Shown here one piece after another: positions 5,294 through 28,033 of a DNA stretch of 33,080 nucleotides. The DNA comes from Alphaproteobacteria bacterium (lineage in GTDB: Bacteria > Pseudomonadota > Alphaproteobacteria > Caedimonadales > UBA9215). How positions within the stretch are numbered: position 1 is the stretch's first letter; every line of letters begins with the position of its first letter. Both the position numbers and the translations under genes were made by a program. Below the pieces are notes generated by a model. That model was not told the origin of the DNA. It did not search any database and saw only the letters and a list, made by a program, of their open reading frames with translations. The stretch covers positions 1 through 33,080 of the forward strand of contig JAJRPZ010000050.1 in the NCBI GenBank assembly GCA_024280495.1. The letters are read 5' to 3'.

Positions 5294-5653
5294 TTAATTA
5301 TAAGCGCCAGAAATTTTAGCATAAGCAACGGCAGTTTTTTCATGGTTCCTGATTTTAGTGAGTTGATCCTGATCCATTTTACTCAATTCAACAATTTTTT
5401 GCGTTAAATCTTCCAAGGCTTGAAAAAAATCAGTCATAAGGGGCGTTAGTTCCACTTTTTCTGCATTTGAAAAATCATCGATATCAACTGTGAAATTATT
5501 GTTTTTTTCAACGTAAAAGTTGATTTTGTCCATGGCTTTTTCCATGGCATCAGTTGAAAATAAAGTTTCTATATTTACGGCGCATTCTTTTGTTAAGTCC
5601 ACAGCTTCTTTAAGCATTATGAGATGCAATTGATAGTCGTTATTTTTCATCAT
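5294..5653 (-). CDS. Small helical protein of the flagellar operon, unknown
   Basis: I do not recognise this 119-residue protein for certain. It has no signal or membrane segment, is predicted mostly alpha-helical, and ends in KTAVAYAKISGAYN. A short helical soluble protein with a C-terminal aromatic/Gly-rich tail in a flagellar operon resembles FlgN/FliT-type export chaperones, but no diagnostic motif supports that. Its start (ATGATG) overlaps the end of csrA by 14 bases, and fliO follows after 21 bases, so it is almost certainly cotranscribed and coupled with both. Confidence 0.75.
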   Translation of the reverse strand: MMKNNDYQLHLIMLKEAVDLTKECAVNIETLFSTDAMEKAMDKINFYVEKNNNFTVDIDDFSNAEKVELTPLMTDFFQALEDLTQKIVELSKMDQDQLTKIRNHEKTAVAYAKISGAYN

Positions 5654-5876
5654 GAATATCCGATACTTTTTTTAAAAGTTCAAGAAGTTTAGTGCTATGA
5701 GCCGCCAATTTATTTTCATATTGGATGCGTTTGTAAACTTCTTCTCGGTGCACAGAAACGTCACGGGGAAAATCAATACCAAGCTTTACTGTTTTGCCAG
5801 TTACCTCGACAACTTTCACAGTAATATTATTAGCAATAACAACACTTTCACCTAACTTTCTGGCAATTTTCAACAC
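5640..5876 (-). CDS. csrA: Carbon storage regulator CsrA (GTG start proposed)
   Basis: CsrA is a small dimeric RNA-binding protein that represses or stabilises mRNAs at GGA motifs and often controls flagellar genes. Signature stretches are RKLGESVVIANNITVKVVEV, LGIDFPRDVSVHREEVYKRI, with the RNA-contacting arginine in VHREE. An ATG at 5915 would add 13 residues and displace strand 1. The GTG at 5876 instead gives MLKIARKLGES, which aligns without gaps to the canonical MLxLxRKxGES, and it has an AGGTGA ribosome-binding site 4-5 bases upstream; the ATG has none of note. The product is 78 residues, slightly long at the C-terminus. First gene of the csrA/119-aa/fliO/fliP group. Confidence 0.92.
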   Translation of the reverse strand: MLKIARKLGESVVIANNITVKVVEVTGKTVKLGIDFPRDVSVHREEVYKRIQYENKLAAHSTKLLELLKKVSDIHDEK

Positions 5877-6018
5877 GAGATCACCTGCACCTTTGATCTT
5901 ATTTTCAAAACTCATTACGAGTCTTTCTTTTTTATAAATATATCATGAATTAAATAAAATTTTACTCTTTATTAATATTTTTTTACAATTCTTTAAGAGA
6001 TTAGAGTGAGACTAATAA

Positions 6019-8781: not shown

Positions 8782-9825
8782 ATGTATAAAAAAACTATGA
8801 ATCATCCACATATACCCAATACAACTGATGAAAAAATTGGTGTTATTATCGTGAATCTCGGCACTCCCGATGAGTCTTCAACAAAGGCCGTGCGTCGCTA
8901 CCTCAAAGAATTTTTATCTGATCAACGCATTATTGCCCTTAATCCTTTATTATGGCAAATTATTTTACGCCTTTTAATTCTACCTTTTAGATCTTCTAAA
9001 ACAGCAAAAATTTATAAAAAAGTATGGCGTAACGATACCAATGAATCCCCTTTACGCTATTATACTAGGCGCCAAGCTGAACACCTAAAAGAACGTTTTA
9101 AAAACCATGATGGTATTATAGTTGATTACGCCATGCGTTATGGCAATCCCAGCCTTAGACTCGTCATTCATAACCTTCAAAAACGGGGATGTAATAAACT
9201 GGTAATTCTCCCCCTTTATCCTCAATATTCAGCCAGTACCACGGCTACGGTTAACGACGAAATATTCCGCGTTCTCATGAAAATGCGCTGGCAACCAACT
9301 GTGCGTATATGCCCCCCTTACGAAACTAATGTTCTTTATATAAAGGCCCTTAAAAACAGCATTCTTATACATTTAAAAAACATTGATTGGAAGCCTGACT
9401 ATCTCGTGGTTTCTTTTCATGGTATTCCCCTTGAATACGTAGAAAAAGGAGATCCCTATAAGGATTTTTGTGAAAGGACATTTAGGACACTTCAAAAAGA
9501 ATTACCAAAAAATACACCAAAATTAAAAATGACTTTTCAATCAAAGTTCGGTCCTAAAAAATGGCTTGAACCCTATACGGAAGAAACTTTAATAGATTTC
9601 GCAAATAAAGGTATTAAAAAAATTGCCATCATCGCGCCAGGGTTTGCAGCAGATTGCATAGAAACTCTCGAAGAATTACAAATAGAATGTGCGGAAATTT
9701 TCAAAAAATGCGGGGGCACACATTTTACTCAAATTCCTTGCAGCAATGATAGCGATGATGCCATTAACCTTTATGAATCTTTAATTCAAGAATCTCTTGG
9801 AAAGTGGGCTGAAAAAAACGCCTAA
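8782..9825 (+). CDS. hemH: Ferrochelatase HemH
   Basis: HemH inserts Fe2+ into protoporphyrin IX, the last step of heme synthesis. The 347-residue protein has VIIVNLGTPD near the N-terminus, VDYAMRYGNPS, LPLYPQYSASTTATV, the catalytic histidine H213 in VVSFHGIP, and the E294 motif PGFAADCIETLEEL. Length is typical. The start region is odd: the stretch TATAAAAACAATG is duplicated in tandem just upstream, and none of the candidate ATGs (8782, or 8797) has a recognisable ribosome-binding site. The palindromic element ends 21 bases before the start. A second heme gene, hemB, lies about 5 kb away. Confidence 0.96.
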   Translation: MYKKTMNHPHIPNTTDEKIGVIIVNLGTPDESSTKAVRRYLKEFLSDQRIIALNPLLWQIILRLLILPFRSSKTAKIYKKVWRNDTNESPLRYYTRRQAEHLKERFKNHDGIIVDYAMRYGNPSLRLVIHNLQKRGCNKLVILPLYPQYSASTTATVNDEIFRVLMKMRWQPTVRICPPYETNVLYIKALKNSILIHLKNIDWKPDYLVVSFHGIPLEYVEKGDPYKDFCERTFRTLQKELPKNTPKLKMTFQSKFGPKKWLEPYTEETLIDFANKGIKKIAIIAPGFAADCIETLEELQIECAEIFKKCGGTHFTQIPCSNDSDDAINLYESLIQESLGKWAEKNA

Positions 9826-9857: not shown

Positions 9858-9888
9858 AAAAAAGATCCCTGTAGGCGAACCTACAGGG
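9858..9888 (-). terminator. Intrinsic terminator of the small-RNA candidate
   Basis: On the minus strand CCCTGTAGG-TTCG-CCTACAGGG forms a perfect 9-bp stem closed by a UUCG tetraloop, followed by AT, C and six T residues. On the plus strand there is no T-run after the stem, so it acts chiefly on minus-strand transcripts, although it also lies 41 bases after hemH. Confidence 0.85.
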
Positions 9889-10010
9889 CAAGTACAGGGA
9901 GTGTGAATCTAGAAAACAGGAATAAACTAGACCCACGTATCATAAGCCATACACATAGCATATTGCTTACAACAAATTGTTTTAAAAAAAATCTTTAAAA
10001 CAGGTTACTC
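9858..10010 (-). ncRNA. Candidate small RNA, about 150 nt
   Basis: On the minus strand a near-consensus promoter (TTGACA, 17 bases, TATATA) is followed, about 150 bases later, by a strong intrinsic terminator, with no open reading frame of note between. Internal hairpins are possible, for example TCTAG/CTAGA around 9910-9932 and GTAAGC/GCTTAT around 9945-9970. It does not match tmRNA, RNase P or SRP RNA motifs that I know; 6S RNA is possible by size but its characteristic terminal stem is not evident. With hfq in the same window, an Hfq-linked regulator is a reasonable guess. Confidence 0.6.
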
Positions 10011-10014
10011 TGAA

Positions 10015-10043
10015 TATATAGATACGTTGTTTCGTTTTGTCAA
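10015..10043 (-). promoter_or_regulatory. Sigma-70-type promoter of the small-RNA candidate
   Basis: Minus strand: -35 TTGACA at 10043-10038, a 17-base spacer, and -10 TATATA at 10020-10015. The predicted start is near 10010. This is the best housekeeping-type promoter match noticed in the window. Confidence 0.7.
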
Positions 10044-10128
10044 CAGAAAAAAAAATTTTTCCTTAAAGAAAGATATTATTTTTTCTATTTCCCTTACCAA
10101 TAAGGGTTCCAGTTGAAATTCATAGAAT

Positions 10129-10253: not shown

Positions 10254-11240
10254 CTAGGAACTTTTCGATTTAGCAAATTCTATGATGACTTCATTACCAG
10301 AGCGCCATCTTGCATATTCTTTGTCATGCTTATATTGACTTTTTAAAGTTTTTATAAATTCTTTAAATGCGCCTTTAGAAAGTTTTTTCAGAGCATCAGC
10401 CATTGTTTTAATACTGCGGGGTTTATCAAGGGATAATTCTTCAATTTTTTCCTTTGATGCTTTATTAATAAGCTCTAGGTATTTTTTTGCTACAACGGGA
10501 ATAATAACTTTTTCTATACGTTTTTTTGCCTGTGACTTCTTAGATCTTGTTAAGCTTTTGAAAAATGAAACGCCATGGTTGACTTTTTCTGAAAAAGCTG
10601 CAATGCCATATTCTTCGAATTTAACAAAAACAAGCTCAGGGTGCTTCTCACCAAGGAAGACAATTTTCCCAAAAAGAACGTGTTTTTTCTTATGGGGTAA
10701 AAGTGCAATTGATTTCATTTTAGCTTCAAACCTAATATCAATACCAAATTGACTGGCTGGACTTTCTTCTTTGTAATGACTGGATTTATTTTTCTTAGGA
10801 CTTCTATCATAGGCAAAATATTTGGATTGTTTACTGGCTACCTGTACATATTTACGTAAAAATTGATACAACTTTTGACCACCATCAACAATTTTATAGG
10901 AAACGCTACTTCCCTTAACGCCTTGTTCTTGACCTTTTTTATGTATGTACCAGACAACAGCCACAATTTTAGCTAAGTACTCTTGCCTTGCTGCACTTAC
11001 CTCTATTTCTTTCTCTGTTTTTTTAGACCCTCTCTTTTTTTTACCATTTTCTGAAACAAGTAAGGGAAGCACTTTAATGTCCGTAAGATTTCCTTTACCA
11101 TAAATGGCATTAACCACCCTACTTCCCTTATACACAAGACTTTCTTCTAGAGGGGTGGTCATTTTCTTTTTATATGACATAGCAGCAAAAGAAGTCGTTG
11201 AAAAACAAATTAAAAAGACAAAAATAAAGCTTTTTCTCAT
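10254..11240 (-). CDS. Lysine-rich exported protein, unknown function
   Basis: I do not recognise this 328-residue protein. It has a clean Sec signal (MRKSFIFVFLICFSTTSFAA, cleavage near residue 19-20), no further membrane segments, and an unusually high lysine content, with tracts such as NGKKKRGSKKTEKE and RSPKKNKSSH. The mature protein would be strongly basic. No catalytic motif is visible. The ATG has an AAGGAT ribosome-binding site. It stands alone between a repeat and lpd. A role in binding nucleic acid, polysaccharide or host components would fit a basic secreted protein, but this is speculation. Confidence 0.75.
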   Translation of the reverse strand: MRKSFIFVFLICFSTTSFAAMSYKKKMTTPLEESLVYKGSRVVNAIYGKGNLTDIKVLPLLVSENGKKKRGSKKTEKEIEVSAARQEYLAKIVAVVWYIHKKGQEQGVKGSSVSYKIVDGGQKLYQFLRKYVQVASKQSKYFAYDRSPKKNKSSHYKEESPASQFGIDIRFEAKMKSIALLPHKKKHVLFGKIVFLGEKHPELVFVKFEEYGIAAFSEKVNHGVSFFKSLTRSKKSQAKKRIEKVIIPVVAKKYLELINKASKEKIEELSLDKPRSIKTMADALKKLSKGAFKEFIKTLKSQYKHDKEYARWRSGNEVIIEFAKSKSS

Positions 11241-16515: not shown

Positions 16516-18471
16516 ATGGCTAATAGCCTTAATATTTCTTTAATCAAAAAAACTTCATCTACTCTTTTGATTGTCTCTTCACTCGTTCTCTTTGCCTCTG
16601 GTTGTAAAGATAAAAATTATAATACGAAAGCAGAACAAGCTCAAATTCACGAAGTAGCCTCCGTTGAAGAATTTTTAAAACGGAAACCTCAATCGGAAGA
16701 TGATGCCCTTATTGCAAAGGGGATGAAAGCTATTGTTGGTGGCGATCTTCAAACAGCGTCTAGGACTTTCAACCTCCTTTTGATTGATGCACCCCTTGAT
16801 GCGCATCTTCATGTATTAAATGCTATCACCTATGAACTTATGTCCGAGCAAAATAACATTGCAAAACTCTCTCTAGCCCAAGCTGGCTATGAACAAGCTC
16901 TAAAAATTGATCCCCATATGACCATTGCATCCTTACAACTGGGGCGCATTTCTGCAAAACAAAAAAACTATGTAATGGCACAGGAATATTTTGCAACGGT
17001 CCTCCTGGCCAATAGTCATAACACAGATGCTCATTATGAATTAGCAAGGGCGTCTTATCACCTTGGTGACCTTAAAACTGGCAGCATGAGTATTAATCAA
17101 GCCTTGAAGGCAGATTCTGAAAATCCTGGCTATTTGCGTGCAGCAGCCCTTATTTATGCCGCCCTTGGCGAGCAAGAACAAGCAAATCTTTATGTGGCAC
17201 GTTATTCAACTCTTGATATTAGCACCCGTCATAAAAAACACTTGGAACGCCGTGTTCACGATTGGGAAAACCTCCACAAATCGGGACGCCTTGTGGCACA
17301 GGCGGACTTAGAGGTGGATACAGTGAATGGAGATAAAGAAGAAAAAAAAACAACCACTACAACTACTAAAGGAGCTGCAGAGGAAGAGGTGGTAACTGAA
17401 GGAGAAGAAGAAGAAGAAGATGCCGCTGAAGCTGAAGAAGAAATTGAAAAAAAAATAAAAACGGCCCCAGAAGAAAAAAAGAAAGAAGGTCAAATCATTT
17501 GGGATGAGACAAGAGAAGGTATGATTGTTGTCGATGCTGTCATCATGCGCATTTCCGAAACAGGGACAACCCGCAAAGGCAATAACATCATGACAAACTT
17601 TCGCATGAACCTAACACCAGGCGATTTCACGAGAACAAGAGAAAAAAGTGATGATGGGAGGGGCGGTGGCATAACAAGAACTTCGGGCTACTCTGTAACT
17701 CAAGGACTTTCCTTTGGCGTCATCGAATACGCCCTTGATATTGCCAATTCCCGTGATCAATATGCGGAAATTATTGGCCGACCCAGCCTCACGGCCACCA
17801 TTGGACAAGAGGCAAAATTCACATCTGGTCGAGATCGTAAAGTCCTTGCTGAAGGTCAGTTTGGCGGCAACCTCACATCCACACCCATTGGTACAACCCT
17901 TCGTGTTAAGGTTATCAAATATGAAGGGGATTTTATTACCCTTATGGTTGAATTGATCGGAAGTAGCACTGAGCAAGGTGCGGCCTTTGGTAACAACACC
18001 ACTTCATTCGAAATCAATAAGGATTACGTTAAAACAGTTGTGAAAGTACGTGCTGGTGAAACTATTATGCTGGCGGGAATTACCCAAAGAGAATTGAGCA
18101 CTTCTAAAAGCGGTGTGCCAATTCTACAAAATATTCCCCTTATTCAATACTTTTTCTCAGAAGAAGTCTCCACCAGCGAACGAAAATCCGTTATGTATAT
18201 CCTCACGCCACGCAGCTATAGCGCAACAATAAAGACAACAAAACGATTTTTCGCCCGTGGTCAAGAATTTGGCAATCGCCCCAAACTCACAGAACTTGAA
18301 CTTCGCCATAAAGACTGGTATGACCCCAGCATAAATAATACGTTGATATTGACTCACCTTGGTAAGGTGTACAATGAGTTCCGCACGGGAGATCTTAACA
18401 AAATCAAATGGGGGCACTCGGATCAAGTGGATAAGCAATTGGCTTCTATTGCGAATTTCATGTACTTTTAA
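16516..18471 (+). CDS. TPR-secretin lipoprotein (type II/III secretion system secretin domain)
   Basis: The 651-residue protein starts with a lipoprotein signal (lipobox ASGC, cysteine near 30), then TPR-like helices (about 65-240, e.g. ALKIDPHMTIASLQLGRISA and AQEYFATVLLANS). A very acidic linker (about 270-325) follows, then a secretin C-terminal domain (about 340-580). That domain shows YALDIANSRDQYAEIIGRPS, GTTLRVKVIK, VVKVRAGETIMLAGI and the secretin hallmark SGVPILQNIPLIQYFF ... VMYILTPR. Secretins form outer-membrane rings for pili and type II/III secretion. The usual N0/N1 ring domains are absent and TPRs replace them. No other secretion or pilus genes are adjacent, so the partner system is unknown. 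The ribosome-binding site is AGGGAG. Confidence 0.85.
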   Translation: MANSLNISLIKKTSSTLLIVSSLVLFASGCKDKNYNTKAEQAQIHEVASVEEFLKRKPQSEDDALIAKGMKAIVGGDLQTASRTFNLLLIDAPLDAHLHVLNAITYELMSEQNNIAKLSLAQAGYEQALKIDPHMTIASLQLGRISAKQKNYVMAQEYFATVLLANSHNTDAHYELARASYHLGDLKTGSMSINQALKADSENPGYLRAAALIYAALGEQEQANLYVARYSTLDISTRHKKHLERRVHDWENLHKSGRLVAQADLEVDTVNGDKEEKKTTTTTTKGAAEEEVVTEGEEEEEDAAEAEEEIEKKIKTAPEEKKKEGQIIWDETREGMIVVDAVIMRISETGTTRKGNNIMTNFRMNLTPGDFTRTREKSDDGRGGGITRTSGYSVTQGLSFGVIEYALDIANSRDQYAEIIGRPSLTATIGQEAKFTSGRDRKVLAEGQFGGNLTSTPIGTTLRVKVIKYEGDFITLMVELIGSSTEQGAAFGNNTTSFEINKDYVKTVVKVRAGETIMLAGITQRELSTSKSGVPILQNIPLIQYFFSEEVSTSERKSVMYILTPRSYSATIKTTKRFFARGQEFGNRPKLTELELRHKDWYDPSINNTLILTHLGKVYNEFRTGDLNKIKWGHSDQVDKQLASIANFMYF

Positions 18472-27793: not shown

Positions 27794-28033
27794 ATGTCCG
27801 ATATAAAAAATAAAAATTTACAAGATACTTTTTTAAATACCGTTCGAAAAGAAAAGTCTGATGTGACTCTTTTTCTAGTAAATGGCGTTAAGCTTCAAGG
27901 TGTCATCACCTGGTTTGATAACTTTTCCGTCCTATTAAGGCGTGATGCCCATGCGCAACTGGTTTACAAACATGCAATTTCCACTATTATGCCCTTAAAT
28001 CCAGTTCAATTGTATGATGATGAAACACAATAA
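27794..28033 (+). CDS. hfq: RNA chaperone Hfq
   Basis: Hfq is a hexameric Sm-like protein that pairs small RNAs with mRNAs. The 79-residue protein has [40 protein letters not shown] (Sm1) and the YKHAISTI Sm2 motif with the conserved KH pair. Almost no acidic/disordered C-terminal tail is present, as usual for alphaproteobacteria. The ATG follows GGAGACCTCA. hflX lies downstream on the same strand, the classical hfq-hflX order, but a palindromic element occupies the gap. Confidence 0.97.

Follow-up and report, generated by a model that had tools for sequence, protein, structure and literature searches.

Does the spacer between hemH (8782-9825, plus strand, PF00762) and a secreted-protein ORF (10254-11240, minus strand) encode a small RNA (sRNA) and, if so, how might this RNA act and to which known sRNAs is it related? 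The spacer lies in a window of 33,080 nucleotides (i.e. the whole stretch of DNA that was analysed) from an alphaproteobacterium, and the original prediction was of an orphan sRNA on the minus strand. To our knowledge, no sRNA has been studied in this small-genome lineage. The genome of the window (G000) was compared with two further genomes of the same genus (G001 and G002), with the other genomes of the order and with a sample of the class.

Transcription unit and conservation within the genus

The predicted promoter was present on the minus strand, with TTGACA at 10043-10038, a spacer of 17 nt and TATATA at 10020-10015. The same element can be read in the alphaproteobacterial RpoD form (i.e. 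GTTGAC at 10044-10039, N17 and CTATAT at 10021-10016), and matches the RpoD consensus form given for alphaproteobacterial sRNA promoters (PMC8844928) except for the first base of the -35 box. A generic promoter scan missed this promoter because the scan demands a T at position 6 of the -10 box. Transcription would start near 10010-10007, giving a whole unit of 10044-9858. The expectation of about 150 transcribed bases without a gene was borne out, as no credible ORF was found inside the ~152-nt transcript; the longest internal ORFs encode 26-29 amino acids, differ between species and are not conserved, and a coding explanation was rejected on sequence grounds. The proposed 9-bp terminator with a UUCG loop and U6 was also found and is listed by the terminator scan. 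Its hairpin (CCCTGTAGG-TTCG-CCTACAGGG, 9888-9867) is followed by ATC and then T6 at 9863-9858, such that the U-run begins 3 nt past the stem. As a G-C pair closes the loop, this is not the extra-stable cUUCGg, and the terminator loops of G001 and G002 differ from UUCG. The coordinates of all features are collected in Table 1.

The promoter spacers of G001 and G002 contain an inverted repeat, GGGAAACATTCTCCC, between the -35 and -10 boxes (L002/L003), which is a possible operator. Only GAAACA of this repeat is retained in the window spacer (10022-10038).

Table 1. Features of the sRNA locus and the likely partner protein (window coordinates)
Feature	Position	Strand	Basis
Promoter GTTGAC-N17-CTATAT, alphaproteobacterial RpoD form	10016..10044	minus	sequence; hexamers and spacing same in G001 and G002
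sRNA transcript, ~152 nt, putative 5' end	9858..10009	minus	3/3 genus genomes; fold z -6.4
First copy of CCUGUUUU, mostly within 5' arm of hairpin 1	9997..10004	minus	invariant GUAACCUGUUUU
Hairpin 1, UGUUUUAAAGA/UUUUUAAAACA	9978..10002	minus	pairs kept 3/3; 4 pairs change one side
Hairpin 2, variable	9938..9974	minus	fold; genus comparison
Hairpin 3, stem held by compensatory changes	9903..9936	minus	5/10 pairs changed both sides
Hairpin-3 loop UUUAUUCCUGUUUU, proposed seed 1, complement AAAACAGGAAUAAA	9913..9926	minus	invariant 3/3; complement enriched upstream of ORFs
Single-stranded CUCCCUGU, proposed seed 2 (anti-SD)	9894..9901	minus	common to MmgR, SorX and AbcR-like RNAs
ACUUG linker	9889..9893	minus	common to related sRNAs
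Intrinsic terminator, 9-bp stem and U6	9858..9888	minus	sequence; listed by terminator scan
Hfq, likely partner protein	27794..28033	plus	PF17209, E 1e-31

Conservation in relatives had been suggested as a check, and the unit was found in both other genomes of the genus. The sequence from the -35 box to the U-run was conserved in all three, with scores of 203-213 bits using a covariance model of the window-type RNA (i.e. model R1). No convincing R1 match was observed in the other seven genomes of the order or, with stricter filters, outside the genus in the 385 sampled genomes of the class. A BLAST match in G005 (L004) and a covariance-model match (L235) were rejected, being AT-rich or 50-nt fragments. 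In G001, miaA and a GNAT gene lie downstream of the unit while G002 has a different downstream ORF, and EamA-etfA is found on the promoter side in both. As the neighbours differ among the three genomes, the sRNA unit is conserved on its own account.

Two further repeats were observed near the orthologues. A partial copy of the sRNA 3' end (i.e. CCCCCUAUCUUGCCCUGUAG to the terminator) occurs at G002:C102:7309-7479 (L242 1501-1671), 1.4 kb downstream of the sRNA and behind a 211-aa ORF. A long inverted repeat (TATTCAGTTTCGACGTGTGG ... CCACACGTCGAAACTGAATAA) adjoins the terminator of the G001 sRNA (L002 1380-1500) and is possibly a small mobile element.

Promoter-like matches were no commoner in this region than in shuffles, as might be found if the AT-rich spacer held only chance promoter- and terminator-like sites, or the leader of a neighbouring gene, and no sRNA gene. 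The unit is, however, conserved in three species with compensatory changes, and the terminator faces hemH, which is on the opposite strand; the absence of a gene is extremely improbable. Promoter-to-terminator conservation in all three genomes, with a fold z-score of -6.39, agrees with the complete minus-strand unit that was predicted, and comparison of the sequences points to a real, conserved gene for a small regulatory RNA at 10044-9858.

Fold and invariant loops of the RNA

The predicted fold of the transcript has an energy of -49.8 kcal/mol as compared to a mean of -28.2 kcal/mol for dinucleotide shuffles (0/200), and the orthologues in G001 and G002 exhibited z-scores of -6.8 and -8.9 versus shuffles. 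The fold consists of four hairpins in a chain. The length and strong promoter of the unit would suit 6S RNA, an idea raised in the original prediction, or another housekeeping RNA. 6S RNA forms one long hairpin with a central bubble, however, and the chain of four hairpins includes no single long bulged hairpin; Rfam gave no 6S, SRP, RNase P or tmRNA match here. The 6S explanation was rejected on these grounds, and a housekeeping RNA is scarcely credible.

In hairpin 3, five of the ten pairs were altered on both sides and yet all positions remained paired (100%) in the three genus genomes, a covariation signal that vanished in control slides. The 14-nt loop of this hairpin was identical in all three genomes. 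Such variation of stems around fixed loops suggests that the loop is the functional part. The sequence GUAACCUGUUUU at the 5' end of the RNA was likewise invariant in all three, while seed 2 was shortened to CUCCC in G002.

Repetition of the loop motif (i.e. CCUGUUUU twice, and a further copy, UUUAUUCCUGUUUA, in the loop of hairpin 2 in G002) could indicate a sponge for CsrA or Hfq in which the repeated loop is the protein-binding site, and a CsrA-like gene is present in the window at 5640-5915. CsrA sponges expose GGA in hairpin loops, however, whereas the sole GGA of this sRNA is in the terminator stem; lacking GGA loops, the RNA is no evident CsrA sponge. Furthermore, the motif is rich in pyrimidines, and its complement is an enriched Shine-Dalgarno (SD) variant (see below). 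The CsrA sponge was rejected on sequence grounds, and we regard a protein sponge of either type as very unlikely. The CsrA-like gene sits within a flagellar cluster.

Probable relationship to anti-Shine-Dalgarno sRNAs

An Rfam search with the window RNA yielded no family at its gathering score, in agreement with the lack of a recognised family in the original prediction. The description as an orphan holds in this formal respect, but not in the wider sense, as the RNA is conserved in the genus and its 3' module relates to anti-SD sRNAs. The best sub-threshold match was RF00519 (MmgR/ar8, 'suhB'), with 21.3 bits for the window and 30.9 bits for G001, both below the cut-off of 41 bits. This match covered the single-stranded CUCCCU..ACUU and the terminator. 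MmgR and SisA-D resemble the window RNA in having a hairpin, a C-rich single-stranded anti-SD stretch, ACUU and a Rho-independent terminator, which in the window RNA comes right after the C-rich stretch. The single-stranded 10-mer of SisA/ar8 (i.e. UUUCCUCCCU), which has been analysed by genetic dissection in SisA (PMC12559287), was absent past the hairpin, the counterparts being UUCACACUCCCU in the window (CUCCCU), UUUACCUCCCU in G001 (CCUCCCU) and CUCCC in G002, and the usual ar8 neighbour, an N-formylglutamate amidohydrolase gene, was not found beside any of these three copies. As compared to MmgR/SisA-D, the window RNA has roughly double the length, two more hairpins and an additional seed in the hairpin-3 loop.

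The AbcR sRNAs have two anti-SD seeds, one in a hairpin loop and one in a single strand, that have been dissected genetically (PMC5461406, PMC8844928). AbcR1 and AbcR2 (ar15) are 114-121 nt long, have a sigma-70 promoter of the same type as the window RNA, and share its layout of a loop seed (theirs M1 CUCCCA; PMC5461406) and a single-stranded seed (theirs M2 GUUCCC). CUCCCA is absent from the window hairpin loop, whose proposed seed is instead UUCCUGUUUU. A single-stranded second seed between hairpins is present in the window RNA, lying between hairpin 3 and the terminator; it differs from GUUCCC and sits just before the terminator. There was no Rfam match to ar15 or SorX (RF02784) for the window RNA, and neither the window copy nor its counterparts in G001 and G002 adjoin a LysR gene of the VtlR/LsrB type. 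Further marks of AbcR are its dependence on Hfq and the repression of mRNAs for ABC transporters. SorX resembles the window RNA in carrying CCUCCCUGU..A(A)CUUG immediately before the terminator. NfeR1/cuckoo RNAs (ar14), described from Rhizobiales families, are similar in their several hairpins, variable stems and repeated conserved loop seeds (two in G002), whereas the window loop seed is not of the CCUCC type and gave no Rfam match. Formal membership of ar8 or ar15 fails; the predicted working layout is the same.

When the relatives were scanned with RF00519, the remaining genomes of the order turned out to share a highly conserved RNA, consisting of a hairpin loop with CUCCCAG, single-stranded CCUCCCUGU, an A-rich spacer, ACUUG and a terminator. 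A model of this RNA (i.e. R2) detected it in all seven other genomes of the order and in 167 of the 385 class genomes, and gave no confident match in the three genomes of the genus; R1 and R2 RNAs were mutually exclusive across the genomes of the order. The R2 RNAs share A(A)CUUG and the preceding C-rich stretch with SorX and the window RNA but differ from the latter in that their hairpin 3 carries CUCCCAG and their hairpin 1 GCGCAA. They match SorX, suhB and BjrC1505 only below cut-off, and the R2 type seems to lack an Rfam family model. In a targeted scan, full-length R2 gave 14-15 bits on the genus copies (14.1 for the window), a score that was not used as proof of kinship because other genomic matches score higher.

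In G003, G005 and G009, the R2 RNA lies tail-to-tail with a TPR-secretin gene, a homologue of which is found in the window at 16516-18471. This window gene is 6.5 kb from the sRNA and abuts uvrA, leaving no room for an RNA. R2-type copies also occur divergent to LysR-type genes (G009:C64, G004:C24 and G005:C36; L302, L303 and L304), an arrangement that is reminiscent of AbcR/VtlR outside the Rhizobiales.

Two bridging RNAs join the window's loop type (UUCCUGUUU-type) with the R2-type 3' module (CUCCCUGU). One, in G004:C24, has the loop UCCUGUUUAAU followed by GUCUCCCUGUCAACUUG and a terminator, with a divergent LysR gene; the other, in G002:C79, has the loop UUCUUCCUGUUU followed by GCCUCCCUGU and a terminator. 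A 60-position model (i.e. R3) was built from nine of these other RNAs, with no window-type member included. With R3, the orthologue in G001 was the top match in 354 kb, at 28.8 bits (E 4e-5), and the window copy came joint second in 395 kb (15.3 bits, E 0.14; not significant alone). The combination of CUCCCUGU..ACUUG and a terminator was common to RNAs of the order and class. The 13-nt CTCCCTGT..ACTTG beside the terminator was present as a single copy in the G000 sample and likewise in the G001 sample; 800 kb of sequence from related genomes also gave one copy, which lay in the related sRNA. Searches of the order for the canonical TTTCCTCCCTNNACTT found no exact copy among the matches listed, with counts equal to the control, while AAAACAGGAATAAA with up to two mismatches occurred 87 times versus 68 in the control, a difference that is not informative alone.

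These results bear on whether the window RNA is instead a genuine but unrelated genus-specific sRNA, which would still act by SD occlusion and whose CUCCC..ACUUG likeness would be convergent, as selection for anti-SD seeds favours C-rich single strands. The window copy is not significant with RF00519, R2 or R3, hairpins 1 and 2 have no likeness elsewhere, and the locus shares no synteny with those RNAs of the order that neighbour secretin or LysR genes, all of which favour separate origins. Against this stand the top R3 rank of the G001 orthologue, the recurrence of the rare 13-nt sequence beside the terminator of a related sRNA, the bridging RNAs in G004 and G002, and the mutually exclusive distribution of R1 and R2. 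We consider an unrelated RNA unlikely. A common origin of the window RNA and the R2-type RNAs is likely from these sequence relationships, and the window RNA is most likely a divergent member of, or a close analogue to, the alphaproteobacterial anti-SD sRNAs.

Seed complementarity and proposed mechanism

For each 8-mer of the sRNA, occurrences of its complement were counted across 395 kb of G000 in the 25 nt that precede each ORF, with ORF starts picked irrespective of the SD. The strongest enrichment fell precisely on the complements of both CCUGUUUU copies and of the 8-mers that overlap them; AAACAGGA was observed 10 times versus 0.25 expected and AAAACAGG 11 times versus 0.47 expected. AACAGGA and AAACAGG ranked second and third among all upstream 7-mers in G000, and the loop complement AAAACAGGA was among the most over-represented motifs upstream of its genes. 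The same motif was enriched, more weakly, in G001 and G002 and absent in the first control sample. AAACAGG was present at 21 of 634 starts in the genus as compared to 5 of 637 in six related genomes that lack the RNA (P = 0.0013, Fisher test). The 3' end of the 16S rRNA is the normal GGATCACCTCCTTT, leaving the AAAAC flank unexplained by ribosome pairing. The excess concerns one particular SD variant and not SDs in general. The SD context of AAAACAGGA is itself unusually frequent in G000, with AAC before AGGA 15 times versus 2.5 expected (L145-L164).

Permutations of the loop around its UCCU core matched equal or greater numbers of gene starts, such that the real loop was not favoured; many starts are matched because poly-U permutations fit AAAGGAAA and A-rich SDs are common. 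In G007, which is without the RNA, AAACAGGA-ATG occurred 25 times per 1.3 Mb, as high as the 19 per 1.14 Mb of G000. A genome-wide comparison of AAACAGGAN{3,9}ATG with AACAAGGAN{3,9}ATG was higher in the genus and equally high in G007. Predicted targets were mostly housekeeping genes, of which only tpiA and cytochrome b561 recurred in a second genome of the genus, with no clear excess. ComM was rejected as a recurring target, the match being internal to the gene.

The reading that we favour, with a probability of about 0.7, is of a trans-acting, Hfq-assisted sRNA that would be transcribed independently from its RpoD promoter and occlude SDs with two seeds, as a divergent, genus-restricted relative of MmgR, SorX and AbcR-like RNAs with a rewritten loop seed. 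The computed results behind it are a conserved transcription unit with a stable fold and covarying pairs, a loop identical in the three genomes, a 3' module in common with other sRNAs, and loop complements in excess at gene starts of G000; from these we infer that the RNA is transcribed, binds Hfq and represses its predicted targets, and that it shares descent with those sRNAs. Hfq, encoded in the same window as originally pointed out, would most likely bind the RNA via its U-tailed terminator. The loop seed may then pair with ribosome-binding sites carrying AAAACAGGAA, and the single-stranded CUCCCUGU before the terminator with SD sequences; masking of these sites in trans would block translation of the target mRNAs. 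A broader role is possible but doubtful, namely that the RNA arose by replacement of the CUCCC seed of an AbcR/SorX-like RNA and is a broad translational regulator, with a seed that co-evolved with the genus-specific SD variant AAAACAGGA and tunes a few percent of the proteome, including housekeeping genes with this variant (nrdR, dksA, tpiA, an IHF-like gene and others).

If the favoured reading of an SD-occluding sRNA is right, this locus would clearly illustrate how an alphaproteobacterial anti-SD sRNA has had its loop seed rewritten and yet retained its promoter, its 3' module and the architecture of its stems, and the co-evolution of sRNA seeds with the ribosome-binding sites of a genome would become directly testable. 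A further outcome of the analysis is a very widespread sRNA of the Alphaproteobacteria (i.e. R2), for which no model in Rfam reaches threshold.
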